Shown here: positions 1,749-37,059 of the stretch, piece after piece
Layout of the letters: every line of letters starts with the position of its first letter
Numbering within the stretch: the first letter of the stretch is position 1
NCBI GenBank assembly: GCA_963971405.1
Contig: OZ020487.1
Coordinates: 13,985,344 to 14,049,343, forward strand
DNA from: Psococerastis gibbosa
Lineage: Eukaryota; Arthropoda; Insecta; Psocodea; Psocidae
DNA: 64,000 nt
Direction of reading: 5' to 3'
Notes under the pieces: generated by a model
Told to the model about the DNA's origin: nothing
Database searches by the model: none
What the model saw: the letters and a program-made list of their open reading frames with translations, nothing else
Made by a program: the position numbers and the translations under genes

Positions 1749-4700
1749 GTAATTTATTAATTTAGTAAATCTATTGTAAATTTATTTATTACGCTCTGAT
1801 TCAATCGATACTGCATATGCCGAACAATTTTCACCCACAACTACCCCTCCCCGAAAAAATGGGCTGGATCCGTCCCTGGTTGTACTAATCTGTGCTATTT
1901 TCACAATGCAGCATTTTGTTTGATATATGCTGCCTGCTTCATGTTATGTAGTTTATGGTTTTTGGTTTCCAATTTATACGTAGTATATGGATAGCTTTGT
2001 GACGGTCCAAATTTTCGATTCCGACATTTCAACGGAATTACACGTTTTGAGGTCCCATGAACTCAAAAAAGTGTTTTTTACGAAATGTCTGTCTGTCGCT
2101 CTGTCTATCTGTCTGTCGCTCTGTCTGTTCATCGATTTCCGGGCAAACTACTCGGATACTGGATTTGGATGAAATTTGGCATGTATATAGGTTCACAAAA
2201 ATCATACCTCAGGACCATTTTTTTTTTATTTAGGGCTAACTCAATTTGGGGGGGGGGGGGAATAATTCTCAAAAAACTCCAAATAAACGTCTAAAAAAAT
2301 TATTTCTCAAAACCGGCTCATACGATTTCTTTTACATTCACATATATTGTAGTTGTTATTAATGTTGACAAAATGCGGGGGGTCGCTTCCCCCTTGATAG
2401 TTTGCTTCTGGGGGTAAAAAAATAAAAATAACTAAATTTTAATGAAGAATGACTAAAAAAGAATTTTTCTGCGAAACCTTTCTATCGGTGATTTCTACCT
2501 TCAGGCATGTTTTAGGTGTTAAATTGAGTAACGAAACGGGACAGGTTACTTTCCCAAAACTATTTGGTTTTATGAAAAAAAATGTTTTTTTGAAAAATGA
2601 TACAAAATTCACGCTCAAATGGATTGCGTGCTCTGCCATTATTGCTGTGTGGTAATGTGTTGGTCTGACCTATCTAGAATTTACCTCACCTCCGGTGACG
2701 TTAGATGGACAACCCCCCCCCCCCCCCCCGAGATATCGGAAATTTAACCATAGGAAAATTATTTACCATGAAATTACTAATTTTCTCTATCTACTAATTT
2801 TGATAAATTGGAAAGCATGTTCGAGTAAACTCGGACCGGTTTTTTTTATTCGTCATAAAATAGACAGATAACGGCGCTGTCAGAAAATACAAGGCGGCTC
2901 CATATTTAATATTTGAATAATTACAGGCGAATATAATACCCAGTACATTACTATGCTACGTGACAACTATCGATGCCACCAGCAAATCCTGTCTCTTTCG
3001 AATCGACTCTTCTATGACTGTTTGCTTCGAGCTAAGGTATACATTTCTGATAATTTATTTCCGTGTAACTTAATATTTTTTTTAGTATCTATACTCAGTT
3101 CGGAGTTTATAATAATAATTTGTGTATTTTTTTTACCTTTTTATAGTTTTTTTTACAGATATTGTAGGCCCTCTTAACCGAAGTTGTGCGGGGTACTTAC
3201 TAATTATTCGAGCTGACAAAATTAATATATTAATTACACCAGACATATTGGTATTAATTCAGTAATATATTGTTACGTTGGTAGAAGTGCTTTTTAGATA
3301 CTTTAATTTGACTTATATGATACGTATACATGCAGTATGTACTGTATACTGTAATAAGGTTCCACAATAGTCAGTGATATGTTTCCTATATGGGCCTACG
3401 GCACCTACCGCCTTATTGGTACCAAAAGCTCTGCCTACACGTTTTTTATAGCTGGGAAGACTGACAAGCCCGAGCGCAGCGGGTTTCGTATGTCCGATAT
3501 CAGTTTTTATTAGAGAGGACTCTAAGCACTTTTTGACATAAAGTAAAATCACTTTCTTATGTATGCAGAGAATGTATTAAAGAATAGTGAATGATTAGGA
3601 GCCGATATATACGTACATACTGATCTTACGGATCCCAGATCTTATGTATCCGAGTGAACTAGGGGCGAGAAGTTGATTCTCGACTGAAATGATTTTTATA
3701 CTATAAAAAAAACTATTTTAATTTATTATTCTAAACTATTATAATTTTTCGTATGCCTACAATAGATGTAGAACATGAACCTTGTGTGTTTGGGTGTAGC
3801 ACACATTAAAAAGGAACCTATTGTAGTCAATGCCTAACTGTACGTATGGTACAATACGTATCGTATTAGACTCACCAAATTGTTTTGGAAAATTACTAAT
3901 AGCTTGTGAGGCTAGGTCACAATCGTATGACAATATCGTGCAGTAAATATGCTTTATCGACGTATAGTTCTGATTTTGAGAATTTTCTATTTCAGTGCCC
4001 CTATGATCCATTAAGTGAATATTGCCTCAAGACAAGTTCTCCTAAGAATGGCGGATCCATGATATTTCATGCGGTCATAGGAACTGAACGGCGGTATCGC
4101 GGCTGTTATAGTTATTATAACGACGAAGAAGCCAACCAGGTTATACCGTACTACATAACTTTTTTACTATTACTCTTTCTTACTATGTATAGAGGCGCCT
4201 TCTTCCAGCCAAATATAACAAATTCAAGAAACTATTCGCTTGACTGAGTACAATGGAGCTAGTTGATCCCTTATTGATATATTACAATAAGTTAAATAAC
4301 GAGAAATGTATAATTTGTGGGTTTGCTCCTTCTCTTTTTATTTTTTATTCTATAGGCCTATATGCTTCGGAGGGCATGTAAAGCAGGCGGTCCCGAGTCT
4401 ACCTAGTTGAGTGTAAGAGAGAGCTTTATAGCCCTAACTCCGCTAGGTTGGCTTAGTAATAGAGCAATAAAAGTCAATATTTTATATATTTGTTATTATT
4501 ACTTGTGGGAAAATAATTTACCGTACTGTGTTTATACCTGACAAGTTGTGGATAGTTTTTAGCAGTGTATAAACTCGCAGCTATGTGGTGGTATACACAT
4601 ACATTATTATTATTATTATTTCGATAAATAAAAATAAAATAAAATGAACATTATGAATAAATAACAAAAATAAATTAGTAAGCCTTGTTTAGCAGCACTG

Positions 4701-7700
4701 TATGAGTCTTTTCGCAAGTAAGCGCTAGCTTGGGGATGCGGAATGTATTATTCTGTTTTATTTTTGTAATATATGCTCCTTGTAATATAAAAAAAAAATA
4801 ATAATAATGCCCGCGTCTTATCTTTTTTGTTTAAAATTTCCCTTTAATTGAGAACAATTTTACCGTCAGAAGGCCTAGGACATGCATAAGAAAGTATATA
4901 ATTATTCATTAGTAATGTCTGTTGACAGGTGCTGGATTACGTGAAATTATTTCTGGATCCCTCGTTTCCTATCCCAGTGGCAGTCAAGGAAATCGGCGTT
5001 GTGGCGCCTTACAAGGATCATGTGCTACTAATTGAGAAACGATTGAAACAACATGGCTGGTCTAAAATCACTGTCGGCTCTGCAGAGGCGTTTCAGGGGC
5101 AAGGACGAAGGATCATCATAGTATCTACAGTTAGATCAGAGGTGAAATAGCTATACTAGCATTTTAAATAGCATTCTACTCTAAAAAAATCCTGGCTACG
5201 GGTCTGCGCCCATCGATTTAGTCAGTGCTATGGCTCAAGGAATTTCGAGGCATTCGAAGTTAATTAAACACAGGAAAATTATTTACTACCGGTTTCGAAA
5301 TCATATTATTTATCTCGGTTACTATACTAATTTGATAAATAGGAAAGCATGTTCGAGAAAACATCAGGTATCCATTTTTATATTTTCCTGCTTTGGGCTA
5401 ACTCAATTTTAGGGGGTTTCTATTCTATGTGATCACTAAATCGGACCCTTCTGTATACATACGTGAGAGGGGATAGATAATAGTGATGAGATAGATAATA
5501 TGAGGAATAGTGGACTTTGTTTACATTAATAATGACTACAATATAGGCCTATAGAGTATGTGAATTTAAAAGAAATTGTTTTAAAAAAAACATTTTTAAC
5601 CCTTTTTGACGTTTTTTTTAGAGTAAACCCCCCAAAATTGAATTAACCCGAAATACAAAAAAAAATGTCCCCAACTTATGATATTGGTGAACCTAGGACC
5701 TACATTCCGAATTTAATCAAAATCCAGTAGTATAGTTTGGCAGACACACATTTCGTAAAAACCACTGCTTTTGGTTTCTCAAAACGGGTAAATCTGTTGA
5801 AATATCTAAACATTTCGACCGTCACAAAGCTTCCCTTATTTTTTTATTTTTATTTTTTTTAAATAAATAAATAAAATGTTTAATAATGGAAGAAAATTTT
5901 ATATTTTACATTTACATTTTACCATTACACTACCCACACTAAGTACAACCCAAAAGGGCCGACTTGTTACGTGGGTAAAATTTTTTGTCAATATACACAG
6001 GATGTGTCGTCACATTTACATACATTTATGAGATATACAATTTAATATTTAAAAAGTTAAAAATTTAAAATACATACAAATACAATTATACTAGCTATAA
6101 GTTAGTGACTCCTTTAATAGGAAAGAAATTGGTCATTTTGTCCAAGGGCATACAGAAGACATGTTAAGATGACTCTCACTTAAATTGTGTAAAGAGAAAC
6201 TGCAGGTAGGTACTACTGATTTTATGATTATACTATAGTGCTACGACCGCGTTAAAGGCTACCTTTCATCCCCACCATCAACCTATCATTTTCCTTCACT
6301 GCCTTGAAATCTAATTTTAAAGAAGAGATTCCTCCTAACATTGTAAAATAGCTAATAGAAGCGCTTATATACTCAGATTTTGTATAATACCGGACAAATC
6401 AGGTAAATGCTGGGTTTATGTGACCACCCATTATATTTAATTGTTACAGAGGGATGATGGTGGCAAGCCGCAGCTCGGATTCTTAAAAGACCAACGACGC
6501 TTCAATGTCATGTTGACCAGAGCATCTGCGAAGGTATAGGTTTAATCCAACCATGGGAAATATAGTTGTTAGCTTCTAGGGGGGGGGGGGGCAATGAAAT
6601 TACAGAACCAACTCAGGCTGGTGGCAAGCTGAATTATAGTAGTTTACAAAACATTTTCGTCGGGGTAAAGCTGAATTTCTGTAGATATGCAGTTATACAT
6701 TTGTGTAAACTAGGGGAGCCCCATTCATGGGGCGATCGCTTTAGGCCTCGCTCGCGCTTGACCAAACATGTACGTACCAATTAGGCGCTTATTCCACCAA
6801 CGTCAGTAGTGATAGTAAATGTAGTATTGACGGAAATTTGAATTTTACTCTATGCCACAATTAAAATTGATCAATGATCATAGAGTAAAATCACGCGCTG
6901 CATACAATAACAAACTAAAATGGTGTCATGGAATATGTTAAGTTCAAACATTTTAATAGATTGTTTATAAAAGAGTTTTCATCCATTAAACAGATCGGTG
7001 AAGGTCGATCTTACTTCGGATCTCCTACTATTATTAGGTTGTATTAAAAATAATAAGCGTACGAAGAAAACAAATACAAACAAAATTTCAAAAAAAAAAA
7101 ATGCCAACAAATTTCAAAAATTTGGCGCATAGAAGATAAAGTGATCAATAGTTGAAAAAAACCTGTGGAATGGCGTGTTTCAATGAAACATTGAAATTTC
7201 CGTCAATACTACATTTACTATCACTATTGACGTTGGTGGAGTAAGCGCCTAAACAGACTCACTCCCCCCGCCAATGCTGACAGGGTTGCTTAAAGCAGCA
7301 ATGCGGAAAGCAGGCGTTGGAAAACAACAAACAACATCTCTCCATGTTCTAGACGCACTCAGGTGAAGGTGTCTGGCACCTGGCTTAGGCTGCAGGCTAG
7401 GAGACGCTCATGTTTTTAGTACAGGGCAGAGATAACTTTGTGTTCCTTGAACATAGAACGAGCCGGTATGACCTGTAAACCAGTCTACGCAGGTGCTGCT
7501 AGATACTTTCAAGAGCTGCCCAGGAACTTCGTTGGCTTCGATGGCAAGGTGGTAGCGTGCTTGTACTTGTGCGAGTCTCTGCGCGCCATGCGATCGGAGA
7601 CGTGTCGTAGCTCAGCACAAGTATTAATTTACTCATTGAGGTGACTGAGGAGGTCAATCGGATACATTCATTAAATTGTTTGTATGCGATTAACCTATAG

Positions 7701-8518
7701 TTTAAAAAAATTAGAAAATAGAAATTAGAAATTAGAAACATTATAGAGAGATGGAATCTTATAAGAACTCCTATAGGAAATCTGAAGCAACACCTTGATG
7801 ATGTGGAGGACATAATGTGCAACTATAGGCAACCATTTCCAATTTCGGATAATATTCATATACAGTATATATAGTAGTGAAGATTTGTCAGTACCGTACC
7901 TATGTTTTAGTTCAGTTTTTTGACTGCATATTGTAGTCACTACAAATCAATGCAGACAATTTTTATTCAATTTAATGATATTATAGTCTATATAGGTATG
8001 GTAATCATATTGCAATATTTTTACAGTGCATTGTAATTGGAAATCCGTTTGTCCTTCGGACTGACATGAAGTGGGCCCGCCTGATAGATGAAGCCAAAGC
8101 GGAGAGCCGTTACATTAATATTACTCTCAAGTGCACGAATTCTTCGAAATCGGACAATTTTCGTAAAAGAGGAAACCACTCGAAGTCTTCGATGTCGGAC
8201 AATTGGCGTGAACGGGAAAACCACACAAAGTCTTCGATGTCGGATAATTGGCGTGAACGGGAAAACCACACAAAGTCTTCGATGTCGGACAGTTGGCGTA
8301 AACGGGAAAACCAGACGAAGTCTTCGATGTCGGACAATTGGCGTGAACGGGAAAACCACACAAAGTCTTCGATGTCGGACAATTGGCGTAAACGGGAAAA
8401 CCAGACGAAGTCTTTGATATTGGACAGCAATTGGCGTAGGATGGAAGCCCCTACGAAGTTTTCGGTATTGAAAAATTTGTTGGAAGAGGAAACACCCCGA
8501 GTGGTGACAAGTCAGTAA
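1622..8518 (+). CDS. MOV10/Armitage-like RNA helicase, copy 1 (3' half; 5' end outside window)
   Basis: Joined exons 1622-1748, 2927-3036, 3996-4139, 4929-5141, 6450-6533 and 8027-8518 give 389 residues and a TAA stop with no internal stop; every junction keeps frame. In order they carry helicase motif III (GDPKQL), the motif IV region (LRDNYRCH), motif V (TVGSAEAFQGQG), motif VI (RRFNVMLTRA) and the family's C-terminal block (CIVIGNPFVLRTD). These are the RecA2 half of Upf1-like superfamily-1 helicases, and spacing and wording match MOV10/Armitage. That family unwinds RNA 5'-3' and acts in RNA silencing and piRNA biogenesis in cytoplasmic granules or at mitochondria. Motifs I, Ia and II are not found in bases 1-1621, so the 5' exons lie left of the window or are lost. 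The paralogue at 19032-29614 has the same exon structure. Intact splice sites and frame argue for a functional gene; expression is unproven. Confidence 0.82.
1985..2856 (+). repeat. family F dispersed element
   Basis: About 870 bp with marks in order: gacggtccaaattttcgatt, a CTGT-rich microsatellite (2084-2126), a G run, gtttgcttctgggggtaaaa, a C run and gttcgagtaaactcggaccgg. A near full-length inverted copy is at 38230-39075; fragments occur at 5240-5850 and 61515-62370. Lies in the first visible intron of helicase copy 1. No ORF; probably non-autonomous. Confidence 0.75.
2084..2126 (+). repeat. CTGT/CTGTCGCT microsatellite
   Basis: Repeated ctgtctgt and ctgtcgct units inside family F. The matching inverse GACA tract is at 38935-38963, and a CAGA-type tract is at 62227-62262. 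Confidence 0.8.
2927..3036 (+). CDS. copy 1 exon: helicase motif IV region
   Basis: 110 bp, entered in phase 1, leaving phase 0. It encodes YITMLRDNYRCHQQILSLSN; LRDNYR is the conserved RecA2 arginine motif of this family. The acceptor is ttacag and the donor is gtatac, a normal GT donor. The matching exon of copy 2 has a GC donor here. Confidence 0.88.
3037..3995 (+). other. intron of helicase copy 1, no recognised repeat
   Basis: 959 bp, AT-rich. Short open frames on both strands lack known motifs. Nothing further seen. Confidence 0.6.
3996..4139 (+). CDS. copy 1 exon: RecA2 segment CPYDPLSEYCLK
   Basis: 144 bp, phase 0 at both ends, 48 residues, containing IFHAVIGTERRYRG and SYYNDEEANQ. 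In MOV10-family helicases this segment carries the 'pI.F..v.G.e.r...S.yN..EA' block between motifs IV and V. It follows a ttcag acceptor and is followed by gttata. It is the most divergent shared exon (about 37 of 48 residues identical to copy 2). Confidence 0.85.
4366..4495 (+). repeat. SINE family E, 3' fragment
   Basis: Starts at tgcttcggagggcatgtaaa and runs to the common 3' end (gagagctttatagccctaac, then caataaaagtcaata). It lies in the intron between copy 1 exons 3996-4139 and 4929-5141. The pol III head is missing. Confidence 0.65.
4929..5141 (+). CDS. copy 1 exon: helicase motif V
   Basis: 213 bp, phase 0 at both ends, 71 residues. It contains EIGVVAPYK and the motif V stretch ITVGSAEAFQGQGRRIIIVS. 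The fifth residue of FQGQG is glutamate in most Upf1-like helicases; here it is glycine. The donor gag|gtgaaa is weaker than the gtatgt of copy 2, and read-through meets a TAG at 5148-5150. Confidence 0.88.
5240..5850. repeat. family F fragments in a helicase copy 1 intron
   Basis: 5270-5360 resembles the 3' part of family F (aaaattatttac, gataaataggaaagcatgtt). 5560-5835 resembles the inverse 5' part (gtgaatttaaaagaaattgt, cagacacacatttcgtaaaa, tttcgaccgtcacaaagctt). Confidence 0.6.
6450..6533 (+). CDS. copy 1 exon: helicase motif VI
   Basis: 84 bp, phase 0 at both ends, 28 residues, containing KPQLGFLKDQRRFNVMLTRA. The Arg of LTRA is the motif VI arginine finger contacting ATP. It has one residue more than the matching exon in copy 2 (DDGGK against DGYK). 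Confidence 0.88.
6784..7249. mobile_element. MITE family B copy
   Basis: 466 bp with ends ggcgcttattccacc and ggtggagtaagcgcc, inner arms around cgtcagtagtgatagtaaatg. A unique core has gatcggtgaaggtcgatctt. Shares ends and the gatcaatgatcat core with family A. It lies in the copy 1 helicase intron between 6533 and 8027. Confidence 0.85.
7540..7670 (+). repeat. family G dispersed repeat
   Basis: gatggcaaggtggtagcgtg followed by cttgtacttgtgcgag and cggatacattcattaaat. Copies at 24463-24530 and 32426-32545. An open frame crosses it but is not conserved between copies. Confidence 0.65.
8027..8518 (+). CDS. copy 1 last exon: C-terminal block plus repeat-encoded tail
   Basis: 492 bp from the acceptor ttacag to TAA at 8516-8518. 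The first 36 residues (CIVIGNPFVLRTD to YINITLKC) match copy 2 at about 29 positions and are the normal end of the helicase core. From 8138 the coding sequence becomes tandem 15-residue units of the form KSSMSDNWRERENHT, rich in Ser, Arg, Asn and charged residues, likely disordered. After about seven units comes a short unique tail ending RVVTSQ. The matching exon of copy 2 has only 53 residues and lacks the repeats. Confidence 0.85.
   Translation, partial: CIVIGNPFVLRTDMKWARLIDEAKAESRYINITLKCTNSSKSDNFRKRGNHSKSSMSDNWRERENHTKSSMSDNWRERENHTKSSMSDSWRKRENQTKSSMSDNWRERENHTKSSMSDNWRKRENQTKSLILDSNWRRMEAPTKFSVLKNLLEEETPRVVTSQ
8138..8455 (+). repeat. 45-bp coding minisatellite, about 7 units
   Basis: Unit starts at 8138, 8183, 8228, 8273, 8318, 8363 and 8408. 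The period is exactly 45 bp, and the last unit is 48 bp and degenerate. The middle five differ by only a few bases, for example gtgaacggg against gtaaacggg and cacaca against cagacg. The period is a multiple of three, so reading frame is kept and most alternative frames are also open. The first and last units are the most diverged, the usual pattern of unequal exchange with central homogenisation. Confidence 0.93.
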
Positions 8519-9235
8519 ACTTCAAATTTGTATTTGTTGGGTATCGTATTTCATCGCTTGGTTCGTGAACATTGTTTCCTTTTATCTTTGCTTCTTCATT
8601 GTTTTTGTTTTGCATCTGTTTTGAAACTTTTTTAACGACTTGTTTATTATGGGATGAAAGTCAGCTGCACACCGGTGCACGGTTTTCCTCGAGACACGCG
8701 GCAGGGTCAAAATCTTCGGAAGTTGACTCGGTGGTTATTCATCTACTCGAATGCTTCAATCCAAGGACACAAATCGTCCGCGACTCGCTCGTGCGGATGG
8801 CACCTAGCTCCCTCACCATTTCAGTTTGCACAGCGGTGCCGTCCAGTTTTACATACCGAGATCAGTATCGGCTGATGGCATGGCCTTGCACTGGAACATG
8901 GCCGTGCTGAGGCGTCCAGTATTCCTTGTGGAAACACTTTAAGTGTGGTGTGAACTTAAGTTAACTGCAATATATTAATAATAATCATTTAATTCCCAAA
9001 TAGTACAATACCTAGAGTATGTTCAATAGTAGCTAGGCTATGTTTATATAGTTATTTGTGATAGAAAGCCTACTTACCTAACTGTTTTTATAAAATTACA
9101 TTACGTAGGCTACGATGAGTATGTAGCCCAAATTTAACCTCATTATAATAATAATAATATTAAAATAAAGTCTATTTTCTTAATAATGTTACATTTGTGA
9201 GACAAAAGAAGTGCCCACTCATGCCATCGGCGTGA
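8519..9235 (+). other. 3' flank of helicase copy 1
   Basis: Probable 3' UTR. Candidate polyadenylation signal AATAAA near 9165 in attaaaataaagtc. Open frames at 8572-8910 have no recognised similarity. Confidence 0.45.
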
Positions 9236-10110
9236 AATGAAATGAAATGAAATGAAATATCGTCTTTATTTTCAGGCGAGCTTTAGCCCCGAAGGGCTAC
9301 TCTTCCAGCTAACCTTCACAATTTTTTGTTTACATTAAATTTTTTTGAACAAAGATCGTTTTCCTGTAAAAAAAAAAAAAAAAAAAAAAGATAGCCTAAA
9401 CATAAGAAAAGAAAAATTCATGCACTCACTCATTTACTCGCACACAACATTCCCCAGAAATTGATGGCAGGCTGCCTTAAATCTCCCCAAGCTGCTCTCG
9501 GTCCTTGTTTCGTCAGTCAGGGAATTCCAAAGTTTAGAGGTATTCACTACAAAGGAATGGTTGTAGTTGTTAGTTCGGTGATTAGGAATGGAAAGTTTGT
9601 TTGAAGCTCTTGTATTGAAATTATGGTAGTCTGATAAATATGAAAATAAGGATGATAGGTAGGATGGGTTTTTAGTATGTAAAATCTTAAGGAGGTATAG
9701 CAGTGCATGCTTTTCTCTACGCTCTCTAGCCTTCAGCCAGCCTATTTTATTATAGTAAGGGGTAATATGGCAGTCTTTTTTTAATGAGAATATATAGCGG
9801 ATACATGCATTCATTCTTAGCTGTAGCTTGTAATTGAGTGTTTCATTTAAACCCCCATACAAAACATCCGTGTAATCAAAAACAGGCAGTATGATAGTCT
9901 GTATTAGGGTCTGTCTAACTTAACATCTAGCATATTTTTTAACCTATACATTGCATGAATAGTACCATTAACTTTTTTACATGTATTCTTTATTTGGGCT
10001 TCCCAACTCATGTATTGATCGAATATCACTCCTAGATTCTTTACTTGGGGGCTATACGGTATCGGGACTCCATTTAATTGCGTGCGAGGGTACATAGCAC
10101 TCAACAGCTA
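9236..10110 (-). mobile_element. LINE 3' end (reverse-transcriptase C-terminal region), minus strand
   Basis: Minus-strand reading frames 9904-10104 (LNGVPIPYSPQVKNLGVIFD, SWEAQIKNTCKKVN) and 9434-9862 (LQLRMNACIRYIFSLKKD, GWLKARERREKHALLYLLKI, NTSKLWNSL) match the thumb and C-terminal region after a non-LTR reverse transcriptase. They are separated by a frameshift or stop near 9865-9905. The 3' end reads AATAAAGACGATA followed by a TTTCA tandem tail (plus-strand GAAAT repeats 9236-9258). 5'-truncated and broken. Confidence 0.8.
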
Positions 10111-10179
10111 AAACTAATTTCTAACTAATTGTACACAAATTTAATAGGGACCCACTGACTTCAGCAGGTAGACTCGTAC

Positions 10180-10384
10180 ACCTTTACTTGCTTAAGTCGT
10201 GCCTTATTGGCCTGTTTCATTGCGTCAATGGTAACCTTGTCTCAGCTTGTCCATTATCGCATTGTAGCCGGTGTAGATTGACATCGAGAACGTACGGTAT
10301 ACCAGTTTGCCAATGGCTAAAAATTCATAAGGAAACAATACAAATAATGTCCCAAACCCATGGGGTCATTGGCCTGGGCCCATA
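10180..10384 (-). repeat. family D repeat, minus strand
   Basis: The plus strand reads gtcgtgccttattggcctgt, cttgtctcagcttgtccatt and ccagtttgccaatggctaaa, the inverse of the 32215 copy. Confidence 0.7.
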
Positions 10385-10680
10385 GTCCTTCTGTTATGTT
10401 CTACATGTTTTAAAGTAAAAGACTAGTTTTACTTATCAGTTATTCATTTAATTCATCTTTTATTTCCTTACGGTTACATTTATACTTTATTCCAAATACT
10501 CCATTTTCTAACTTCCAAGGAAGAACAAAGGCAGTTAGTACACCACGCTGCCACTATGCCACAGCACCAAAACAACGCGCGAAACAACTACGAACTTAAA
10601 CTTAGTTCTACTTCTTAAATACCTAAACATTACACCTTCTAAAAATTACATTACTCTGACGTCAGCAGCAGGTGTTACAG

Positions 10681-10960
10681 TACGGTATTCCATGTTCCTG
10701 TGGTGAAGTTTATATAGGTGCTAGTACTACAGAACGTAGCTTGAAGATCAGGATATGAAGACACAAACGTAACTGACTTCCTCTACATTCAGTAAGGTCT
10801 GCAATTGCTGAGTATGCTCTAACACAAGAAAGCCGTATAATACGTTTTCAGGACGCGACAGTAGTCTACTATTTACAACTGCTTCATGGTTGTTATAGTT
10901 CAACCTCTCCAGCAGTATACCACTTTACTAATATAATAGGGCTAAGTTCGATTTTTTGGA
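10681..10960 (+). pseudogene. GIY-YIG endonuclease fragment of a retroelement
   Basis: The plus frame reads IPCSCGEVYIGASTTERSLK, then a stop, RHKRN, and after another stop SAIAEYALTQESRIIRFQDA. This is the GIY-YIG nuclease layout (CxCG.vYIG.t.R....R..EHkr...saiaeHa) of Penelope-like and related elements. Several in-frame stops and a frameshift before it mark it as decayed. Confidence 0.6.
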
Positions 10961-11344
10961 ATGAAACCTTCACACTATACAGATACCTAAATCATGTGTG
11001 TAGACACACCTATACCTTGTATATATCGTATGCTATGGTATTATATGAGCTATACCCCTATACTGCACAGGCTGAACCAGTCTGTTTATTTCGATTGACA
11101 GGCTATGTGAGGGGCATAATATAATTATGTACAATTATGCCATCAACCTTCAAACGACAGTTAACAAACCAGTACAGCTTTCATTAAGTAAGTTAGGTCC
11201 TGTTGTGAAACCTGATAAGATTAAACTTTTTACAAAAACTTAGCATTAGGGTCTTAAGCCCGAAGCACCTTGCAACAGAGGACGATTGTTTAGTAAACTA
11301 CATTATGTTCGCTGTCCGCCGTGTAGGCCTATTTCGATATTGCC

Positions 11345-12215
11345 TATAATGTCCTTCCTCCTCCGTAATGTCGCGTCCCGGCTTAGGGGGGGGGGGGGTC
11401 GCCCGAACCCATTTCCTGAACTCGCCTCTAGCTATGGCTATTTAACACCTTGAACTTGTTTTCCTTCTTGTTCCGGCGCCTTGTTTAATCCTTTTTATTT
11501 TTATTTAATGGGGTACAGGGTGTTACCTATGTGCACTTAAGTCTATTATTGGGCCTATTGTGCCCCTTACAGCAGAGTGGGTATCTAGATCGCTTCACTT
11601 CCTCGAGGCATATCTCCCTCAGGAGAGCCAGGATCTTGGCGGGGGTTTAGAAGCGGTAGGTATAGGTCTTTTACATGACTGTAACTGCGAGCTTCCCAAG
11701 CACTCTTCGTGCGCTTGTATCACAGTGAAGGAGGATCTTCTCGGGGTCATCCGTTCCTTCATTGCAGAATCTGCATGCTTTAGACTCTCTGACACCTAGG
11801 CCTATATGTTAGTCAGATGTCCATTCTAGTTGCAAAGCCCAGAGAGGTAGGCCTAGTTGGTATATACTGTAGTTGTCTCCCCAAGAGACTCCAGATATTT
11901 AATCCCAGGACCAAAGACACCTAGGCCTGTTCTTGGTTTTGACTTTGTACGTCCTAGCCTAGAGCCATCAGTATAAACCACTTGAATGTGTGACTATTGG
12001 GAATTCCTGCTGGTTCGCAGTATTTTTTCTAACCTGACGCCATCGTCGGTGCACACCCAAAGGCCGTCTTTGGTCTCAGTGGTGAAAGGATTGGCCGCTA
12101 AATGTTTCCACTTTGCGTTGCCCAGGGTACGCCCGATCGGTTTTTTATCCACGGTTTTTATAGGGCCTAGATAGTGTATCTTCGGGGAGGCTCCTTTCCT
12201 GTACCACGTGTTCAA
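11345..12215 (-). mobile_element. LINE fragment with RNase H and zinc knuckle, minus strand
   Basis: The minus strand has YTDGSRLG-like sequence at about 11985-11965 (RNase H strand with the catalytic Asp), then RTGLGVFGPGIKYLESLG, and CRFCNEGTDDPEKILLHCD, a CCHC zinc knuckle typical of LINE C termini. The 3' UTR has accccattaaataaaaataa. A related copy on plus is 45240-45832. Frameshifts break the ORF. Confidence 0.75.
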
Positions 12216-12831
12216 TATCGGTTCCTCCTATAATCTTTATGAATTTATAAGAGGAAAAGTGATCAATTTTATGTCGTGCTAGAAATGATGAGACAACTTT
12301 TCAGTAAAGTATATACGAACATTTTATTAACTTTTAGAAAAAGCGATTTAATAGCCCTGGTTTCATAAATGGCCGTCAGGTGTAGCTAAATCGCAGCCGG
12401 TGCCCGGGGGCCCGGCAGCATTATGAGGTGTGCCGTTCCTGTTTTTTTCAGGAGCTTGCGTTACCAGTTCCAATGATTCAAGAGTAAGTAGCCTATATAA
12501 CTATTTTCTATGGTATATAACTGACCGTCAGTCTGGATAATGCATGGATATCCCCATTTTGCATTGCGTTCCTCAAGAACCTAATATTTTTGTATCCGGG
12601 AGCCGTTGCAACTAGTTCCTAGCTGAAGAACCGTTCTTAAGAACGGTTCCAGTAAGAACGACCCACCTCTAGGCAGCACATAGACATAGTAAAACTGTAG
12701 ACTCATCGTAAACATTCGGGTTGCAGCCGCTTGACTTCGGCTATTTCCGTAGTATAGGTGCAGTTTGAGTCTTTTGCCATTTGATACCATGTTAACATTT
12801 TATTTTTTATTTGATTATTTAAAGATTATTT

Positions 12832-13215
12832 AGAGCGGAAAATCATGCCAGCTAACCAGCAATATTTTTATGCAGAACTTGGAGTACTTTTAATTTACAT
12901 TTTAAACAATATTTTTAGCAAAGTTTTCCCTACTTTTAGATAAAAATAAATTTTTTTAATGCAGATCTTTCAGTACTTTTAATTTAAATTTTAAACAATA
13001 TATATAATAAATGTAAATAATAAATATAATTATATATGAAACAACAAAGAAAATTATAAAGAAAACATATAATAAAACTATAAATTTGAATTTCCCGCCA
13101 AAATGCACTTATGAGTGGGCGTGGTCGTGGCTTCAGTCCTCCAGCACGGCCGAAATACGACATGGTGGCTCCATAGTTTTATTAGCTCCATGAGGCAGCA
13201 TGCTGCATGCAGCAT
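12832..13215 (-). repeat. dispersed repeat, inverse of 22518-22790
   Basis: Shares gcagatctttcagtactttt, gaaacaacaaagaaaa, atttcccgccaaaatgcact and gcttcagtcctccagcacgg with the inverse of the later copy at high identity. Both carry two AT-rich stretches. Coding potential is absent. Confidence 0.75.
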
Positions 13216-13534
13216 GGCCAACTTGTCACTTGTGCTTGTTTACATAAACAAATAAAACCAAACTTTCCTAAAACTTGCACTACTAAAACTAAATACTATA
13301 AGCCTGGAGATTTTTTAAACTTATTTCAAAGTAAATTGTAAAACCATTCTCTTGTCTCTGCTTAAAGTGATTGACTTCAAATACTAATCAGCTACTATGC
13401 ATTATCAAACCCAACTCGGTGAACCAGCTTAAATCTAAGGTATTGCTAATTTAATCTGCTGTATTTCTGTAGGCCATCGCATCTTTTCATTATAGTGGCG
13501 TCTGTAAGCAATTTATTTATAACACTAGGAAGGT

Positions 13535-15263
13535 CCTAGGTTAAGCCTGCCATACCTCCCGGTTTACCCGGGAGGCTCCTGGTTTTCAGTCCAATCTCCC
13601 GGCTCCCGGGTGAATGTTGTCGGGAGGCTGTATTCTCCCGGTTTTGGAAAATCTCCCTGTTTTTCTAAGACATGAAATTGAGTGATGTAATTTTACGATT
13701 AAGTATGCCTATAAATTTTAATCGATGAATTGTGTGCAATTTTATTCATCGCCTGTAAATTCTAATCTCCGCAAAACCCCACTATTTCAGGCCTGTTTTT
13801 CACAATTTTCCAACTACCTACTTAATTCCAGAGGCGGACGCAGCGACCGGCACTGCGGGCAATTGCCCCCCCCCCCTTTGGAAGGCAGTTATATTCTTTG
13901 CCTCTAAATATTTGTCCCGGGCCCCCCTCGTGCACAATTGTATTAATTCCCTGTAATATAGAAACCTTGTCCTTATTGCTCTGAAAATTAGTAAAACGCT
14001 AATATTTCAGCCCTATTTTTCAAATATCTTCTCCCGCGGGTGAGACCCCCGGGCCCCCATCATATCCTCCGAACCCTCTGGCTCATGCGCAAAGGGCACT
14101 AAGGTCGTTAATGTAAAAGCTGCGTTCGTCCATGGGAACGGCTTTCCCCATTTTATACACCTTTATGAAAATGGGTGGAGGGGCGCCAAGTTATACACCG
14201 CCCCTTCGAAAACCTATCGTACGCTATACTGACAAGTGCCTCCCCCTCCTTTCATGAGGTCTGGGACCGCCTCTGCTTAATTCATCGCATGTAAAACCAG
14301 AACGTTACTGCTATCAAAACGAGCAAAACCCCACTACATCAAGCCAATTTTTCAAAACATTTTAACCGGGGGAGACCCCCGGGCCCCCCTATGTGCAATT
14401 GTATTTTTCGCTTATAAAATCTAAATTTTACTGCTATCAGTATACGTAAAGCCCCATTATTTTAAGCCAAGTTTTACAAATTTTTCCACCGGGGGAGACC
14501 CGCTGGCCCCCTTGTTTGCCACTACTAACTTAGTATATTTATCGCCTGTAAAATCTGAACATAACTATTTACTGCTAACTAAATGCGTAAAACCACATTA
14601 ATTTAACCAATTTTTCAAAAAAAACTTATACCGGGGGAGACCCCCGGGCCACCTTGTGTGCAATTGTATTTTTCGCCTGTAAAATCAAATAAATGTACCT
14701 GCTATCAATCTGCGTAAAACCCCACTATTTGAGGCCTGTTTTTCAAGAATTTTCAACCGGGGGAGACCCCCGCCCCCCCTTGTTTCCAACTATAAATTTA
14801 CCTACTTCATTCATCGCATGTAAAATCGGAACGTTACTGCTATCAAAATGCGTAAAAGCACATTATTTTAAGCCAACTTATCAACAAAATTCTACCGGGG
14901 GAGACCCCCGGGCCCCCTTGTGAGCAGTTCTATTTTCCGCCTGTCAAACTCCGCTATTAAAATCTGAACGTTACTACTATCGAAGTGCCTAAAACCTCAT
15001 TAATTTAAGCCAATTTTTCAAAACAATTCTACCGGGGGAGACCCCCGGGCCCCCCTTATGTGCAATTGTATTAGTCGCGTGTCAAATCTAAATGTCTAAA
15101 AGCTGCGTACGTCCTTGAGAACGGGTTTCCCGTGGAGGCCCTCTATATTTTTGATGCTAACTTATTGCACTTGCCTAGATGTCGAAAAAAATAGGTATAG
15201 TGTATAATCCAAACTGAAACCTCCCGGTTTTTTGAAAAAACAATCTGGCAGGCTTAACCTAGG
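13535..15263. mobile_element. 1.7 kb element with 18-bp TIRs and internal tandem repeats
   Basis: A perfect 18-bp terminal inverted repeat: CCTAGGTTAAGCCTGCCA at 13535-13552 and its inverse at 15246-15263. The next bases at both ends carry cctcccggtt motifs. The interior holds the GC-rich tandem array 14030-15060. No transposase ORF, so non-autonomous. A second partial start of the same family (cctgccatacctcccggttt) follows at 15270-15330. Confidence 0.75.
14030..15060 (+). repeat. tandem array of 120-140 bp GC-palindrome units
   Basis: Blocks like accgggggagacccccgggc occur near 14034, 14368, 14490, 14631, 14757, 14894 and 15031. Between them are AT-rich arms (gtgcaattgtatttttcgcc, gtaaaatctgaacgttactg, cgtaaaaccccactatt). 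Each GC block is itself a palindrome able to form a hairpin. Related sequence occurs at 19750-19930. Confidence 0.85.
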
Positions 15264-15327
15264 TATAAGCCTGCCATACCTCCCGGTTTACCCGGGAGGC
15301 TCCTGGTTTTCAGTCCAATCTTCCGGC

Positions 15328-15387
15328 TCCTTTCTGTGTCGCCTTCCTGGTACCCGTTGTTTCTTAAGGAAGGCGACGCAGAAAGGA
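15328..15387. repeat. 20-bp inverted repeat hairpin
   Basis: tcctttctgtgtcgccttcc (15328-15347) pairs with ggaaggcgacgcagaaagga (15368-15387) at 19 of 20 positions, with a 20-nt loop. It lies between the TIR element and the Penelope fragment. Confidence 0.85.
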
Positions 15388-15459
15388 TCCTAAGGAAACA
15401 TGAACTCAAGAGCTTAGCACGGATGGTGTACGCAGGACAAGACGTTACCTAGGAGAACA

Positions 15460-16080
15460 AGCAGTGTGTCAAGATCCCGTTCATAGGAGAAGTCAGCATG
15501 AAAGTAGGAAGACTAATAACCCGAACTACTAACAAAGTTGTATCCTTTAGCTGCCCGCCCAACTTAGGAAAATTCCTCATCAACTGTAAGGATAAGGTTA
15601 ATAATAATAGGAAATCAGGGGTTTATAAAATTTCTTGTAATGAATGTAGTGCGAGTTACATTGGACAGAGTGGACGCAATTTTAAGTTTCAGTTACGTGA
15701 GCATAAAAATGCGATCGGTAAAAATGACTGTACCTCAGCTTTTGCGGACCACCTCTCAAGTAACTCGCACTCTTGTAATTTTGAAGATTTTAAAATTTTA
15801 CATTGTTGTAATAAAGGTAGACTATTAGACAAGTTAGAAAGCTTAGAGATTAGAAAGGCTATTAGGAATAACGAGGTTCTCACGAACGATATAATGTTTC
15901 AAACTGTATCCCCACTACTCGATTTATGTACTCAACCCCCGCCTCCACCTCCCACTCCCATCCCGTAGTATATAAGCTGGCGTTTTTTCATGTGTTGTTA
16001 GTCTGATGATGGATTTTATCCGAAACCGGTCACTATTAAAGTATTTTACTGTGGATCATTGCGTTCTTCATCCTCTACGC
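15460..16080 (+). mobile_element. Penelope-like element 3' part with intact GIY-YIG ORF
   Basis: The open frame reads IPFIGEVSMKVGRLITRTTN before the ATG at 15498, then LGKFLINCKDK, SGVYKISCNECSASYIGQSG and FKFQLREHK, ending at a TAG at 15966-15968. IP(F/Y)..G.S.K.GR and the GVY...YIG...R..EH order are the linker and GIY-YIG endonuclease of Penelope-like elements, which nick target DNA for reverse transcription. The tail is a proline run (QPPPPPPTPIP). After the stop comes ctgatgatggattttatccg and gaaaccggtcactattaaag, the typical Penelope 3' sequence. The reverse-transcriptase part is missing. Confidence 0.85.
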
Positions 16081-17985
16081 ATGATGTTCTCCAAGTTCCA
16101 CAAAGTCACCAAGGAAACTCCTACAAGGACTATTTATAATATATAATATAATATATAGGAAATATCCATTGCAGAGCTATTAAAAATGTCATTACTTGCT
16201 TTACTTTTTCCGCACCTTATTCCCAATGCCCTCTGGGTCTTGGTGTGAGAGTTAGGGGTGTTCCCTATCTGCCCAGATCTTTCTTGGTAGCGTCATCTTC
16301 GATGTTCCTCTTCTCTTGTTTTCTGGGACCCTTTTCTGGAGATGAGTTTCGCCTCACCTTTGGATAACCATAACATTTTAACAGGCTTTTTCCCTGACCT
16401 TGAGAGCAGTGTCGCATCCATTAGATGAAATACTCCACATTTTGATATCTGCTATGTGGCCGTCACCAAAACCGCTGGGCCACAGTCCCTGCACTTGTTC
16501 CTCTGGACGCCCTAACCAACCGTTCTTTGCACAAATCACAATCGATAATTATTGTGGCCAATCGGTGTTATATACGGGTACATTATAATATCCAATGAAA
16601 TTTCTGTAATTTGGATTGGATCTACTATTGAAGATGAATGAGATATTTTAATTTTTTGAACTAGTCTAGCTTTCGCCACCCTGTAGCAAGCATGAGCTTA
16701 TTAGCATTATTATATAATCGCCTAATATATATGTATTGTTTTTTTCAGTGTAGACTATTATCATTGGGCAACCTATCGCTCTGTGTAGTAACAAAAACTG
16801 GGCCTTCTTGATAAACAAGGTTGTATCAGAAAAAGGTTACCGTACATCATTTACTTGAAGAATTGGAGCAACAATTGCGATATTGCCTGCAGTTCATACA
16901 TTAGGTACCGTACTTATAAAACAGCTAGTCTACTAAATGGGTTTAGATTACATTATTACAATGCATGAGGTTTCTCATACCGCAGTTTATCCATTCAACT
17001 TTTGCTGCCTCTGATTCTAGATAGATCATTTGAGATTAGAAAACAAAATAGGTAAATATACCTGTTTTGGTATCTACCTACATTACATACAGTACCGTAG
17101 TTAGGACTTACCATTAGTACTGGGTATTAATGATTTATATGCCGACCTAATTTGTTTTGCGGTCAAACAGACAATATTGCAAATTTTCGGTTTTACCAAA
17201 TTTACCAAACAGTTAATAAGCAAAGTCCAAAGAGTCCATAGGGCAATGAGTGACTATGAAATGCTGTGAACAAGAAAATTACTGTTCCTGGCGCCGTGAA
17301 TGAAAATTTCCCAACCAAAAGTTTCTATATTTTAATGGAACTCATGGGGTATTCTATATAAATGATATATTATTAGTCCAATTAGGGGTCCGATCATAGC
17401 ACTATTATAATGGTTAAGCGAACATTTTGAACGAGCGTATCATCTATATCGTACACTTGCTTAAATTATGAAGCAGTCTAGTAGTAAATTATTATAATGA
17501 GTCGAATATATAAATTTACGATTCCCATCGTATTCTAGGCCGGGCCTATATTTTGCAATTCTCTACACTTCGTCTACGGAATGTCCTAGAAAATTTTCGG
17601 AAACCTCATTATTCATTGATATAATTACCTATGTCTAGGCTGAGCATAGATACTCTTTACTTCGGATTTATAATCATTCGAAGCCTAGAATTTTTTGAAT
17701 TTAGCGCCATTTCTCCTGCCACGTCTTTCCAAAACAAATGAATCATGAATGTTATGTTATAAAACAAGCAAGGCGGAGCTCGAGTTTTTGTTTGAATTTT
17801 CAGTTTTGAGATTTTTGTTTAATTATGTATTTCCTGAATTATTATTGAAGTCTCTTCTCATTCTGAACTGCGTTGGTAGGGTACCAATTGCTTGTTAATT
17901 TGAAATACGGTGGCTATCCATACATATTACCGGTATGTCGATCTTTGCTATTCATGGGTCATGGCCCATTGGTACTCTGTACCGG
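16080..17985. other. intergenic, mostly unrecognised
   Basis: Only the family H-like stretch at 16440-16580 is recognised. A TATA palindrome run occurs at 16138-16155. Otherwise nothing identifiable before the decayed reverse transcriptase. Confidence 0.5.
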
Positions 17986-17989
17986 GTGC

Positions 17990-18315
17990 CCGGAATGTCG
18001 ACGTCGGCCTCTATTTATGCGGACGACGCAAGTGGTGTCAGTGGACAGTACCGCTGATGACATAATTATTCGACGTTCCACACTCTGCTCTTGCTCTGCC
18101 TGTAGCCTAGCTATCTGCCTACAAAAAAACAGGCGTATCCTTAATCAAGGCAAAACCTAATTCATTGTCTCGCAATGTGTTCGCTTCCTGGGCCTCACAA
18201 TTGACGCCTTCCTCTTGATTCACCTCTATACAATAAGCTATGTGGTCCTATCTCTTCATCTAGGTACCGTATGTCCGTATCTACTTGCTCAGATATTTAT
18301 CATATCCGGTAAACT
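17990..18315 (+). pseudogene. decayed LINE reverse transcriptase fragment
   Basis: Three plus frames together give an RT palm-like order: SIYADDASGVSG (YADD catalytic box, about 18008-18040), then ADDIIIRRSTL and LQKNRRILNQGKT, then FIVSQCVRFLGLTIDAFL. This matches the fingers/palm order 'YADD - WA..N.L.LN..KT - FLG..ID' of non-LTR elements. Frameshifts separate the blocks. Confidence 0.55.
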
Positions 18316-18330
18316 CTGATAAGCTTAGAA

Positions 18331-18690
18331 ATGTATGTTTCAGTCTTTTTCAGTCCCTTTTATTCTCTCTCTTCAGGTGTAGGGCGAGGTTTTCGCCTCC
18401 AGAAGGGGGATGTGAGAGATCAGAGGGTATCATGTAGGCTTGTAGTTTTTCTGCTGAATTTGGTTAGCCTAGGCCCGGTAGGTACCATACACAGCGGCGA
18501 CACACTGCGGCGACTCGCTGAGAATTTTCAGTCAGCTGCAGAAGATTTCTATGAGCTGTCATGTTTTGGACGTGTCAAGGGGAAAGCCGTGCAGTCAGCT
18601 TCGCGCAAGGCTCAGAAATCTTCTGAAGTTTACTCTGGTTTTCTAACTATACCCACTTTCTACACAATAGAACAGTTGAGGCTATGATGC
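18331..18690 (+). repeat. DNA-element-like repeat related to 43508-44063
   Basis: Contains aggcccggta (18471), cactgcggcgactcgctgag and gcagaagatttctatgagct. The 43508 element reads aggcccggtacacatgg and tcagatgatttctatgatct at matching places. An open frame over this stretch is not similar to any protein I know. Confidence 0.45.
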
Positions 18691-19031
18691 ATGACTCTCC
18701 TTACAGCCCATCCTCTTACCATGCAGAAATTGTGTGTCGATTTTACTTCCAAATGTTATGCCTATACGGCTGTAGAATCTGGTAGTGTGCACAGCGTTGG
18801 CAGGGGAACATGGTGGGACATGATAACGCCCTGAAACGCGTTAGTGGAAAAAAAAACTTCCAAATGTTTCGTCAAAATCTGCATTTAGTGGTACTACGTA
18901 GTTTTCTTAGATTGTATATATCGGAGGCTCGGTAGCATCAGAAGCAACAACCAATTTTAACTAGTCTATTAATTTTACGTATATATTGATGATTTTGATT
19001 AATGCATTCTTTCAGTTTACAAACTGCTGCA

Positions 19032-19220
19032 ATGGGGACATCGTTCAGAATAATTGAACTCATTATCAGGTTCATAACACGCTTTTGGAGAAACCATACT
19101 GCCCCTTCTACTTACAGCCTGAATAAATTTAAGGGTCTCAATATAAATAATAACAATTTAGTGGAGTGTTGCCACGGAAAGACCCCCAGAGCTAGATTTG
19201 ATGAATTGATAGAACCTAAG
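19032..19220 (+). CDS. copy 2 proposed first coding exon
   Basis: An open stretch from ATG 19032 to donor gtaggc, 63 residues, leaving phase 0 as the next exon requires. It begins MGTSFRIIELIIRFITRF, alternating hydrophobic and basic residues like an amphipathic or membrane-associating helix, and ends ARFDELIEPK. A ttcag acceptor lies just before (19015) and the frame stays open back to it, so this may be an internal exon with the true start further upstream. Membership in the gene is inferred from phase, position and strand only. Confidence 0.5.
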
Positions 19221-22200
19221 GTAGGCTTGTTCATTCGTGCTTTACATTGATATGACCATATGATTGATAAAATGGGCGAAACACTTTGATGACTATATTG
19301 GCCGCTATTAGGCCTACACATAATTCACGTAGGGAAGTACTGCCTCAATCAATTACTATGAAGCTATGTGTATAGACGAACCTCATCTCAGGTGGCGGAA
19401 ATGCCAGGCTGCATACGTCTTATTCCTCTATATGATGTGGAATAAGGTAGGCAGCAGCCAGCCTGCAATAACGCTGGTTTATAAACTTATTCACAATTTC
19501 TCTATCGTTGTCACATGTGAGAGGTCTTTCTCTGTATAGAATTTGATTAAAAAACAAATTACGAACGACATTTCCTAAAGTGAGTCCGAGCTCTCTTTTC
19601 CCCGGGGGCGCCCCGTCCATTCGCCCCTTCCATTCGCCCCGTCCACTAAGCGAATAAGGCAACCACTTAATACCTTGCCCTTCAGTAGAAACTCACCATT
19701 TTGCGCCTATTTATTTAAAAGATTGTTTCCTATTTCCAGTTTTGTCAACAATGTTCTAGTCTGCAAAATCGAATATTTCTTGCTCACAAAATACGTAAAC
19801 CCCCACTATTTCAGGTCTATCGTTTCTAAAGGAGCGTCCGTCCAAGAAAACGGCTGTCCCATTTTCTATTTTTTTATGAAAATTGGAGGGGGCGCCAAAT
19901 AGTAAACCTTAGTAAACCTATCGTTACGCCACTGCCTTTAAGTGCAAATCACCAAAGAAAGATACAAATATAACGTCAGATGTATGGCAATTTGTATGGC
20001 GCTGGTGCATGTAGAGTATATGGTATAGAATTTTTTGATTGATATTTTACCTTACTATAGGCCTATATGAACTTAAAATGGCCCCTATTTAAAACAGATA
20101 GCCTGATTAATGTTAATACTAATGTATAAAAATGTGTTTTTCAGGAATTATTTATGTTACTTAAAGACATTGGCAAAAAGAGGGGCTTATCCCCTTCTCA
20201 AAAACTCTACTACGATGATCTTATTAAATTTTATTCAGCGAAGGAACCGACAATGAACAACTACTTTGAATACTTCAAGGAGTTAATACTCATGGAATAT
20301 TATGAAGAGCAGCAAGCTTTTGATTTGTTTAATCATACTAAGATTGTTGTTCACGTGGATCCGAATCCAAAAATCAAGCATGTAAGTCTGACAATCATGG
20401 GCAGATTCAGAGAGGGGGCGTGAGTTCGCCTCCCGAGATGGTTCAGGATGAAGCAGGACAATTCAATATATTGTAATTGGAAGGTACCGAAATAGTATGG
20501 AACCAACCCCCCCCCCCCCACACTGGAGAAATATTTCTGTTGGTCCGCCCTTGCGTTAATAACAGTATCGGAAATTTACCTGACGCTTGGGATGTAACTG
20601 ACAAAAATGGGAATCTCAAAGGATAGTTCAACATATTTCGTATCGGAGGCCATTTAAATAACGGAGTACTCTCCTATAGAGAATGCTACAGCCTTGCTGT
20701 AATCGGCGCAGCGCATTGCCTTACTTATGGAGTATTTAGTTTCCGCAATGTATGAGAACTCTGAGGTCGCCAGGTTCGGTTTGAGTTCTCCTACACCAGA
20801 GCGAGAGCTAAAATTTCAACTAGGCACACCTCTCCCTATAAGGTGGAGGTCAAGAAGAGCTTTTAATTTGTTGTGTTGGCTACTTTTCAGGTCCTGCTGT
20901 ATCTTCCTTTTGTGTACAAGGAACTAAATGTTCTAAAACACTGTCAAGTGGAATTCAAATTTTCATATAAGTATGATACATATTACGTAAGTATCGTCTC
21001 TATCAAAGTTTATAGCGGTAAAATGCTCCCAAGCCACATTTAATGTAGTCTTTTAAGAGGATATGCTACTTAGAAAATGAGAAGCCCAAAATTTGTTGTT
21101 TTTATCGACTTTTTATTTTTTATTTATTTTAATTCACAATGCAAGTTATTAAAGATTTGGCTCATGTAAGTTGTAGAAGACTACTTCATGCATCGTATAA
21201 GAGGAAATATTAAATTTTTTGTAGGCCTACCTTAGTTTTTTCTCAAATACCTGAGAGGACTAAAATTTCGCGTAATCTAGGATTTTTGGAAGAACTACAA
21301 AACCGTAAAATAAACCGTAAATAAAAAATCAAAAGTATTTAGGCTTATTTTGGGGTGCCAATTATCTACGTAGCATATCCTCTTAATAACAATTAATATT
21401 GAGCGATAAATTGTTATCAATGTTATAGAAGACAGAGTTGAAAGAATGCATGGGTACATAATATACCATTAAATACTATATGGAGGTCCAATATAGCAAG
21501 CAATGAGTCTGTTTGCAGAGCGAAGTAACGGAAATTGAAGTGAACGGAGCATTGGTAGTTCCAGCGGATCATGATTTGATTCGTCTTTGCCGTAGAGGAA
21601 GTCCCAAAGTCCGATTTTTGTGCTCGACTTATGGCACACAAGTTCGACTTGACTCTCTTCAAACTATTACTAAGGTATGTTAGTTGTATAGTATTAATAT
21701 CAGTCCATTTTAAGGGCATAGGCTTATAATACACAACAGGCTTTTATGTTTAACTTCTGACCAAAGTATAAAAGCTCAAGCTCATGTAAACATTTATATA
21801 TTTCTACTGTTAATATAATGAAATAAGATGTACTTTAATTTGTTACAATCCGGCCACTGTTTTCTTATTTTGGCCTGAAATTAATTATAAAAAAATCTGG
21901 CGACCACTATAAATATCAGTGTGTTGTATTTTGAGAGCAAATTGGACACCCCACTAAGAATGTTTTGTACAAGGCCGAATTTCACAAGGAATATCCAATG
22001 GAAAAAAAAAACAGCATTGAAAGAAATACTCTATAAATTTTGATACGTGATATGTGGCCGTCACTAACACCGATTGGTCACGGTTTCTCAGGACGCCCTC
22101 TCTGACTGTGTTTACACACGGCTCATTTACTGTGTATCAGCATGTACCGTAACAAAATGTAGAGGAGTATTTCTACTAAGGGATGTGATATTTTTATTTT

Positions 22201-29614: not shown

Positions 29615-30476
29615 GCTTAATGCTCGTCACATCTAGTTGTTGTTTCTTATTTGTAACTGTTTCGTTCCTCCAGTTTTCGGTTTGGGTTTCTCCTCTTGTT
29701 TGTCTGGTTTAGTTGACATGTATTAGATTTCCATTAAGTGGCTGTGGATATCCTTCATAGAGAAATTAAATATGTTAACTCTATACAATATAGTTAAGTT
29801 TTAGAACTCAAATTTTATTTTTTTTAAAACTACCCAAAAATTTTGCAACTAAAATTATAATGCGAAACGTATGAGCTGTGAATTCAGACTGACTGTGCTC
29901 TGTGCTTCTCTGCAACGGACCTGCCTTGCACCTCAAGGCCATGTTGTTTTGTTTATTGAGCGTGCCTTCAGCTATGCTCTCAGCTGTAAACATCAGCACC
30001 TTCTGTGACGCAACTATATTATAGTCATTTCAAGATGATAAAATGAAATTACATTTTCTGATTTGCTGCTTTATTGAGAATTTATTTTGATTGGATGGCC
30101 CAATAATAAGTTGAAGATATTTCCCATCCGAAAGATATCCTTTATTTTTTGTAAGTGTCGGCTACTTGTTGATTACAATCACTGCATGTCACTATATTTT
30201 ACAATTATTGTTGATATTATTTGTAATTTGTTCTAAAAGCTAAATTATTCTATCCTAGAGCCTACAATAATAAGTTGTTAACTTTAACTCACACGAGGAA
30301 TTACCAAAAATTATCAAAGGAATACTAATGTTCTACTGTGTTTTATTAATTCTTAAATGTTAACTGTCATATGTAATACCTATAATACCTACCACTACCA
30401 TCACTGTTCCTAAAAGTTTGGCAATATAACCAAGTTACCTTACCAGTAACCAAAATGTTATTTATTTTATATTAAC
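29615..30476. other. 3' flank of helicase copy 2
   Basis: AT-rich, without a convincing exon. No canonical AATAAA stands out close to the stop, so the transcript end is unknown. Confidence 0.5.
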
Positions 30477-30896
30477 AGGCTACTTGACTGTAGTAACAAT
30501 AGAAAATAAGATATGCTAGATAAGGTAGCTTATAGGTTAACAATAATAAGGCTGATAATACAATATTTTTTTTTGGTAAATATTAAAAGAAAAAAAAGAA
30601 ATAAATGTGAGTGTTTTTAGCTGTGGATTACAGGAGCCAAAACGACAACAGACATGGGTAACCTGAAAATGACGCCACAGTCCAATCGTCGTCATGCTGT
30701 GAGTAGCCCATGAAAGCTCCCGCGGCATCACAAATGCCGGCACACTCCAATCCCACGTGATCCGCTTTTAAACCATCAAACTAAAATTGATGGTAAAAAT
30801 ATTTGTACCCCTACTCAATAACGTTAAAAAACGAGAAAAAAATCTAGCCTACTAATTAATGCATTAGATCAGGCTTAAAAAAATGTCAAGTAGCCT
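30477..30896. mobile_element. TIR element, AGGCTACTTGAC ends
   Basis: AGGCTACTTGAC at 30477-30488 and its exact inverse at 30885-30896, 420 bp. The interior (ctgtggattacaggagccaa, taaaccatcaaac) recurs in 35854-36582. No clear target duplication. Confidence 0.75.
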
Positions 30897-32214: not shown

Positions 32215-32400
32215 TTATTTGTATAGTTCCCTTATGAATTTTTGGCCATTGGCAAACTAGTATACGTTCTCGATGTCAACCTACACCGGCTACAAGCCAT
32301 AAATGGACAAGCTGAGACAAGCTTACCATGGAGTCATGGACGCAATGAAACAGGCGAAAGCATGACTTAACCAAGTATAGATATACGAATCTTGCTTTTG
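32215..32400 (+). repeat. family D dispersed repeat
   Basis: Marked by tttttggccattggcaaact, cgatgtcaacctacaccggc, ggacaagctgagacaagctt and gcgaaagcatgacttaacca. Other copies: 594-770, 23090-23245, 34507-34690, 48065-48430 (interrupted) and 51540-51720 on plus; 10180-10384 and 54680-54785 on minus. No ORF and no clear inverted ends. Confidence 0.75.
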
Positions 32401-32425
32401 GAGTGCAAAGTATGACATCGACTTC

Positions 32426-32545
32426 GATGGCCAGGTGGTAGCGTGCTTGTACTTGTGCGAGTTCCTACACGCCATGCGACGCAGACTTGTCGTAACACAG
32501 GCACTAACCTATAGAGGCGATTGAAGAGGTAAATCGGATACATTC
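32426..32545 (+). repeat. family G dispersed repeat
   Basis: gatggccaggtggtagcgtg through cgccatgcgacgcagact to aatcggatacattcattaaa, matching 7540-7670 nearly throughout. Confidence 0.65.
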
Positions 32546-37056: not shown

Positions 37057-37059
37057 TAA

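Follow-up and report, generated by a model that had tools for sequence, protein, structure and literature searches.

Does the last exon of a helicase gene in this window (the whole 64,000-nucleotide stretch analysed, part of contig C12 in a genome of 409 Mb and 68 contigs) encode a protein tail built from a minisatellite, how did that tail arise beside a neighbouring copy that has none, and does it do anything? The best explanation, which we regard as probable, is that copy 1 of a duplicated SF1 (Upf1-like) helicase carries a coding minisatellite whose product is most likely a tolerated tail.

Joined exon blocks of both helicase copies matched the Pfam families AAA_12 and AAA_11 above cut-off (copy 1: 2.7e-41 and 8.5e-25; copy 2: 7e-42 and 1e-26). 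The best NCBIfam match of copy 2 was an IGHMBP2-family helicase, below its cut-off, and the C-terminal part of copy 1 gave 19 solved-structure matches, SEN1 and UPF1 among them. From their sequence the window copies are filed as tandemly duplicated Upf1-like SF1 helicases. No MOV-10 domain was matched by any of the four N-terminal fragments of these copies, some exons of which were possibly missed, and MOV-10 Ig-like and beta-barrel domains were not found in the joined models, which do not include the full N-terminus. A gene with a MOV-10 beta-barrel fragment is present on contig C3 (C3:34690001-34710000; L020, L021), where one of five fragments matched PF21634 (MOV-10 beta-barrel) at 7.7e-8 and one matched PF21633 at 0.0039, below cut-off; this gene ends CDLLKEE, similar to the -EE class of degrons that DCAF12 recognises.

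Upstream of the array, the following helicase exon blocks of copy 1 were aligned with copy 2:

1622-1747, + strand, helicase exon, aligned block (VLAGDPKQLAP...)
2926-3036, + strand, helicase exon, aligned block (DNYRCHQQIL...)
3996-4139, + strand, helicase exon, aligned block
4929-5141, + strand, helicase exon, aligned block (AFQGQGRRIIIVSTVRS)
6450-6533, + strand, helicase exon, aligned block (RRFNVMLTRASAK)

The two copies were compared in 11 blocks totalling 554 aligned codons, in which there are no stops; this gave pS 0.613, pN 0.161, dS 1.27 and dN/dS 0.143, the ratio being approximate as dS is near saturation and was not computable in 2 of the 11 blocks. The two most N-terminal blocks are under less constraint (ratios of 0.31 and 0.58). 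The blocks GPPGTGKT, FIDEAGQAMEC, VLAGDPKQLAP, AFQGQG (TFQGQG in copy 2) and RRFNVMLTRA are intact in the paired exons of both copies. The codon comparison indicates that both are under purifying selection. Palindromic MITE-like repeats lie in introns of both copies, at 961-1345 (arms of 38 and 71 nt at 97% and 89%) and at 23536-23930 (arms of 137 nt at 91%); translated matches to relatives also occur upstream on C12.

The join from 6533 to 8027 in copy 1 is in phase 0 (by eye), and the frame continues unbroken past the helicase core end (...CIVIGNPFVLRTDMKWARLIDEAKAESRYINITLKC) into the array. The parts of this exon and the matching exon of copy 2 are as follows:

8027-8518, + strand, last recognised exon of copy 1: core end, repeat tail and TAA; acceptor tttacag before 8027 by eye
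8135-8179, + strand, unit 1 (TNSSKSDNFRKRGNH), 45 bp, ancestral-like, aligns with the copy 2 tail
8180-8224, + strand, unit 2, 45 bp
8225-8269, + strand, unit 3, 45 bp
8270-8314, + strand, unit 4, 45 bp
8315-8359, + strand, unit 5, 45 bp
8360-8404, + strand, unit 6, 45 bp
8405-8452, + strand, unit 7, diverged, 48 bp and thus still divisible by 3
8453-8497, + strand, unit 8, degenerate
8498-8518, + strand, ancestral C-terminus RVVTSQ and stop (TAA at 8516-8518), homologous to LAKSR and stop in copy 2
29453-29614, + strand, counterpart in copy 2, also its last recognised exon, with a short basic tail and no array

TRF placed the 45-bp array at 8134-8426, with 6.5 copies and a score of 432. Read by codon, it has six units of 45 bp, a seventh of 48 bp and an eighth that is degenerate, all in frame, so that the in-frame 45-bp minisatellite of about seven 15-residue units given in the preliminary description is borne out, positions included. 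Tandem units of about 10-100 bp in several copies, as in a minisatellite, are thus present (45 bp, 6.5 copies by TRF); that they are exonic and keep the frame is seen in the continuity of the helicase exon, the 45/48-bp unit lengths and a stop register common with copy 2. Units 2-6 (8180-8404) have 40-44 of 45 bases in common, i.e. 1-5 differences (10 pairs), and units 1, 7 and 8 are diverged relative to them. A 90-bp higher-order repeat was suggestive by eye, but as many as 30 of 120 unit orders do equally well, so that it lacks significance. The stretch 8135-8452 is stop-free in four of the six frames, and for this reason the open frame alone is weak evidence of coding. The better evidence of coding is its continuity with a constrained exon and the homology to copy 2 at both array ends.

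Over 224 kb of genome TRF gave 57 rows, seven of which (six places) had a period of at least 15 and at least three copies; among those seven the copy 1 array had the most copies and the top score. A genome search with 141 bases of the array matched the 8027-8518 locus alone, in two overlapping hits (one candidate scored in one assembly, very common words being skipped by the search). As these fall in a single place, the array is not supported as a dispersed satellite.

Several other elements were recorded around the exon. A 265-bp tandem repeat (TRF; 2.5 copies, 77% matches) lies at 14280-14948, and related GGDPRAPL-type translated matches occur upstream on C12. There are ORF fragments at 9434-9919 (- strand), resembling the end of a LINE reverse transcriptase, and at 15453-15968 (+ strand), resembling a Penelope-like GIY-YIG piece. 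No RNA family reached its gathering score in 7000-31000. Elsewhere in the assembly, contig C68 carries a COX1 gene that is readable in the invertebrate mitochondrial code (table 5); 42 of the 43 PF00115 matches listed are COX1 fragments outside C68 (for example C14:11085363-11086361; the largest covers profile positions 111-436), and these are probably nuclear copies of mitochondrial DNA.

Copy 2 offers a view of the tail without the array. As described earlier, it has no repeat tail and ends within 20 residues of the same point: its exon stops 17 residues past the equivalent LKC. Its last exon is 330 bp shorter than that of copy 1, and 330 is a multiple of 3. At the upstream flank, the alignment of unit 1 with the short tail of copy 2 scored 33 and those of units 2-8 scored 12-20. 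Once the true loci had been taken out, none of 5000 random 60-mers reached 33 (maximum 26); an earlier random run that kept those loci had 1 of 2000 segments at 33. At the downstream flank, alignment of the two copies in the register of the stop gave 19 of 27 identical bases, including the three of TAA. Only 2 of 4217 TAA sites in 154 kb reach 19 matches, as many as the two loci themselves would supply, although the sites were counted and not listed individually. Because both array flanks are homologous to copy 2, the 330-bp difference is an internal expansion: the array is an in-frame expansion within the ancestral tail with the original stop retained. Since units 2-6 are nearly identical and the helicase copies are near silent saturation, the expansion of the array, or its homogenisation, is much younger than the helicase duplication, and the array can be read as a young centre with old edges. 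The recent central turnover proposed beforehand agrees with this pattern of near-identical central units and diverged edge units, set against a dS of 1.27 between the gene copies.

Tandem arrays of this type grow by slippage or unequal exchange. In copy 1, a stretch of about 15 codons of a short ancestral C-terminal tail would have been duplicated in tandem, presumably by one of these routes, and the centre of the array would have gone on turning over after the initial duplication. As the units measure 45 bp, and the odd one 48 bp, the reading frame and the original stop were kept. The protein of copy 1 would thereby gain about 110 residues of charged, Ser/Asn/Arg-rich repeat past the helicase core.

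Further relatives of copies 1 and 2 comprise a third, more diverged copy upstream on C12, three on C14 and one on C19; across the motif V exon, all five are 47-61% identical to the two window copies. The tails that could be read are unlike one another, have no repeats by eye and are about 8 to 37 residues long if unspliced; that of copy 0 is RNGATLHV, and the three C14 copies have other tail sequences and an uncertain true end, donor-like sites following in two of them. The comparison of tails covered copy 0 and the three C14 copies; among the relatives on C19, C3, C15 and C12:43-Mb, the C3 end alone was read. As the tails of relatives are unlike, the C-terminus is suggested to be unconstrained in this helicase family. 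Between copies 1 and 2, a degraded fragment resembling the helicase C-terminal exon (16724-16840; 33% identity, internal stop) is perhaps a dead helicase copy. A search for relatives in viral contigs gave 10 stretches that matched a pattern, none of which encoded a relative.

What the tail would do can be approached from its composition. Units 1-6 contain 21 K/R, 14 D/E, 20 S, 12 N and 5 W in 90 residues, and their FoldIndex is -0.565, in the direction of disorder. For the exon, single-sequence AlphaFold predicted one long helix at low confidence (residues 60-140; mean pLDDT 56.8, pTM 0.21). The disordered tail proposed in the preliminary description is favoured by the composition index, the helix being of low confidence, and the suggested granule role found no support. 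Changes within the array comprise E/K, H/Q, N/S and S/T replacements together with silent ones (pooled pS 0.115, pN 0.055); these unit-to-unit differences are too few to give a clear purifying signal. Most probably the tail is a length-labile appendage that is tolerated at a position where the helicase family appears unconstrained, and at most it would bind RNA or other charged partners weakly and non-specifically.

A selected module is the leading alternative, albeit an unlikely one: the tail would be a multivalent polyampholyte whose unit number sets how strongly it binds RNA or partitions into RNP granules. The richness of units 1-6 in charge, Ser and Asn, the regular spacing of Trp, each unit having a single aromatic residue (Trp in units 2-7) beside basic residues, unit lengths that are all multiples of 3, and the constrained helicase core retained by copy 1 would all fit such a module. 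The authors of a survey of human coding repeats also expect repeats of this kind more often in the defence proteins of organisms with large populations and no adaptive immunity, a remark and not data in the excerpt cited (PMC1273636). The array was, however, found in no other genomic place; changes between units include changes of charge (E/K), without clear constraint, and the structure prediction for the tail is of low confidence. We favour the tolerated appendage over the selected module. A more far-reaching version, in which a recently gained, length-tunable RNA- or granule-binding tail re-tunes a defence-type helicase within populations and helps the copies to diverge functionally, seems very improbable.

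Known systems bear on tolerance in both directions. According to the excerpt cited, a 39-nt in-frame tandem repeat of Drosophila Vasa is missing from some cDNA clones, and Vasa without the residues it encodes shows no measurable effect, whereas deletions of the last seven residues or of most of the N-terminus do have effects (PMC4400588). As in copy 1, an in-frame minisatellite lies outside the core of an RNA helicase there, and in Vasa its copy number differs between clones; the Vasa repeat, as far as that excerpt goes, is N-terminal, sits in a DEAD-box helicase and varies by one copy more or less, whereas copy 1 has about seven C-terminal units in an SF1 helicase. The terminal deletions of Vasa imply that helicase tails can matter. 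This is also the case for MOV10, whose C-terminal -EL degron is read by CRL4-DCAF12 in the portion cited (PMC8161014), so that residues past the core of this broad helicase class can matter; the C-termini of Vasa and MOV10 thus count against simple tolerance (PMC4400588, PMC8161014, both as excerpted). Copy 1 ends VVTSQ and copy 2 LAKSR, with neither -EE nor -EL, whereas the C3 relative ends LLKEE. Coding tandem repeats with copy-number variation are described for human genes, where the excerpt reports no enrichment in defence proteins (PMC1273636). They resemble the present case in having tandem units in coding sequence that alter protein length (here predicted), and differ, by the same excerpt, in that copy-number polymorphism was measured, whereas the copy 1 array is known from one assembly. 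In zebrafish, mov10 is tandemly duplicated and likewise gives neighbouring duplicates of a related helicase, although in a different gene and lineage and with no repeat tail mentioned in the cited portion (PMC9319325). The literature search on in-frame exonic minisatellites in RNA helicases found no such tail, and no wider absence is claimed.

A second rival, which we consider unlikely, places the apparent stop within a splice donor (TCA|GTAAAC in copy 1, TCG|GTAAGC in copy 2), which would make the array internal, with more exons downstream. The copy 2 site does resemble a donor, and the corresponding exon of two C14 paralogues leads into a donor-like GGTATG or GGTAAGG; yet all 16 of the 16 donors inferred for copies 1 and 2 carry G immediately before the cut (by eye; one is a GC donor), where the copy 1 candidate has A, and comparison of 8519-20000 with 29615-40000 on the plus strand gave no convincing common coding block (best E 0.006). 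That best translated match, 16291-16383 against 30723-30809, does not adjoin the end of the copy 1 exon and was rejected as a common downstream exon. Less likely still, an array transcribed outside the main protein, in an alternative last exon or a degraded copy, has against it 554 aligned codons without stops, a low dN/dS and intact GPPGTGKT, DEAG, QGQ and RFNVMLTR blocks.

The array in copy 1 is a real coding minisatellite, ordinary and well known in kind. The locus would gain in importance if populations differed in unit number and this altered the behaviour of the helicase. Because an unexpanded neighbour exists in copy 2, it provides a clear before-and-after view of the birth of a protein tail, which would have arisen by tandem duplication with the stop codon unmoved.
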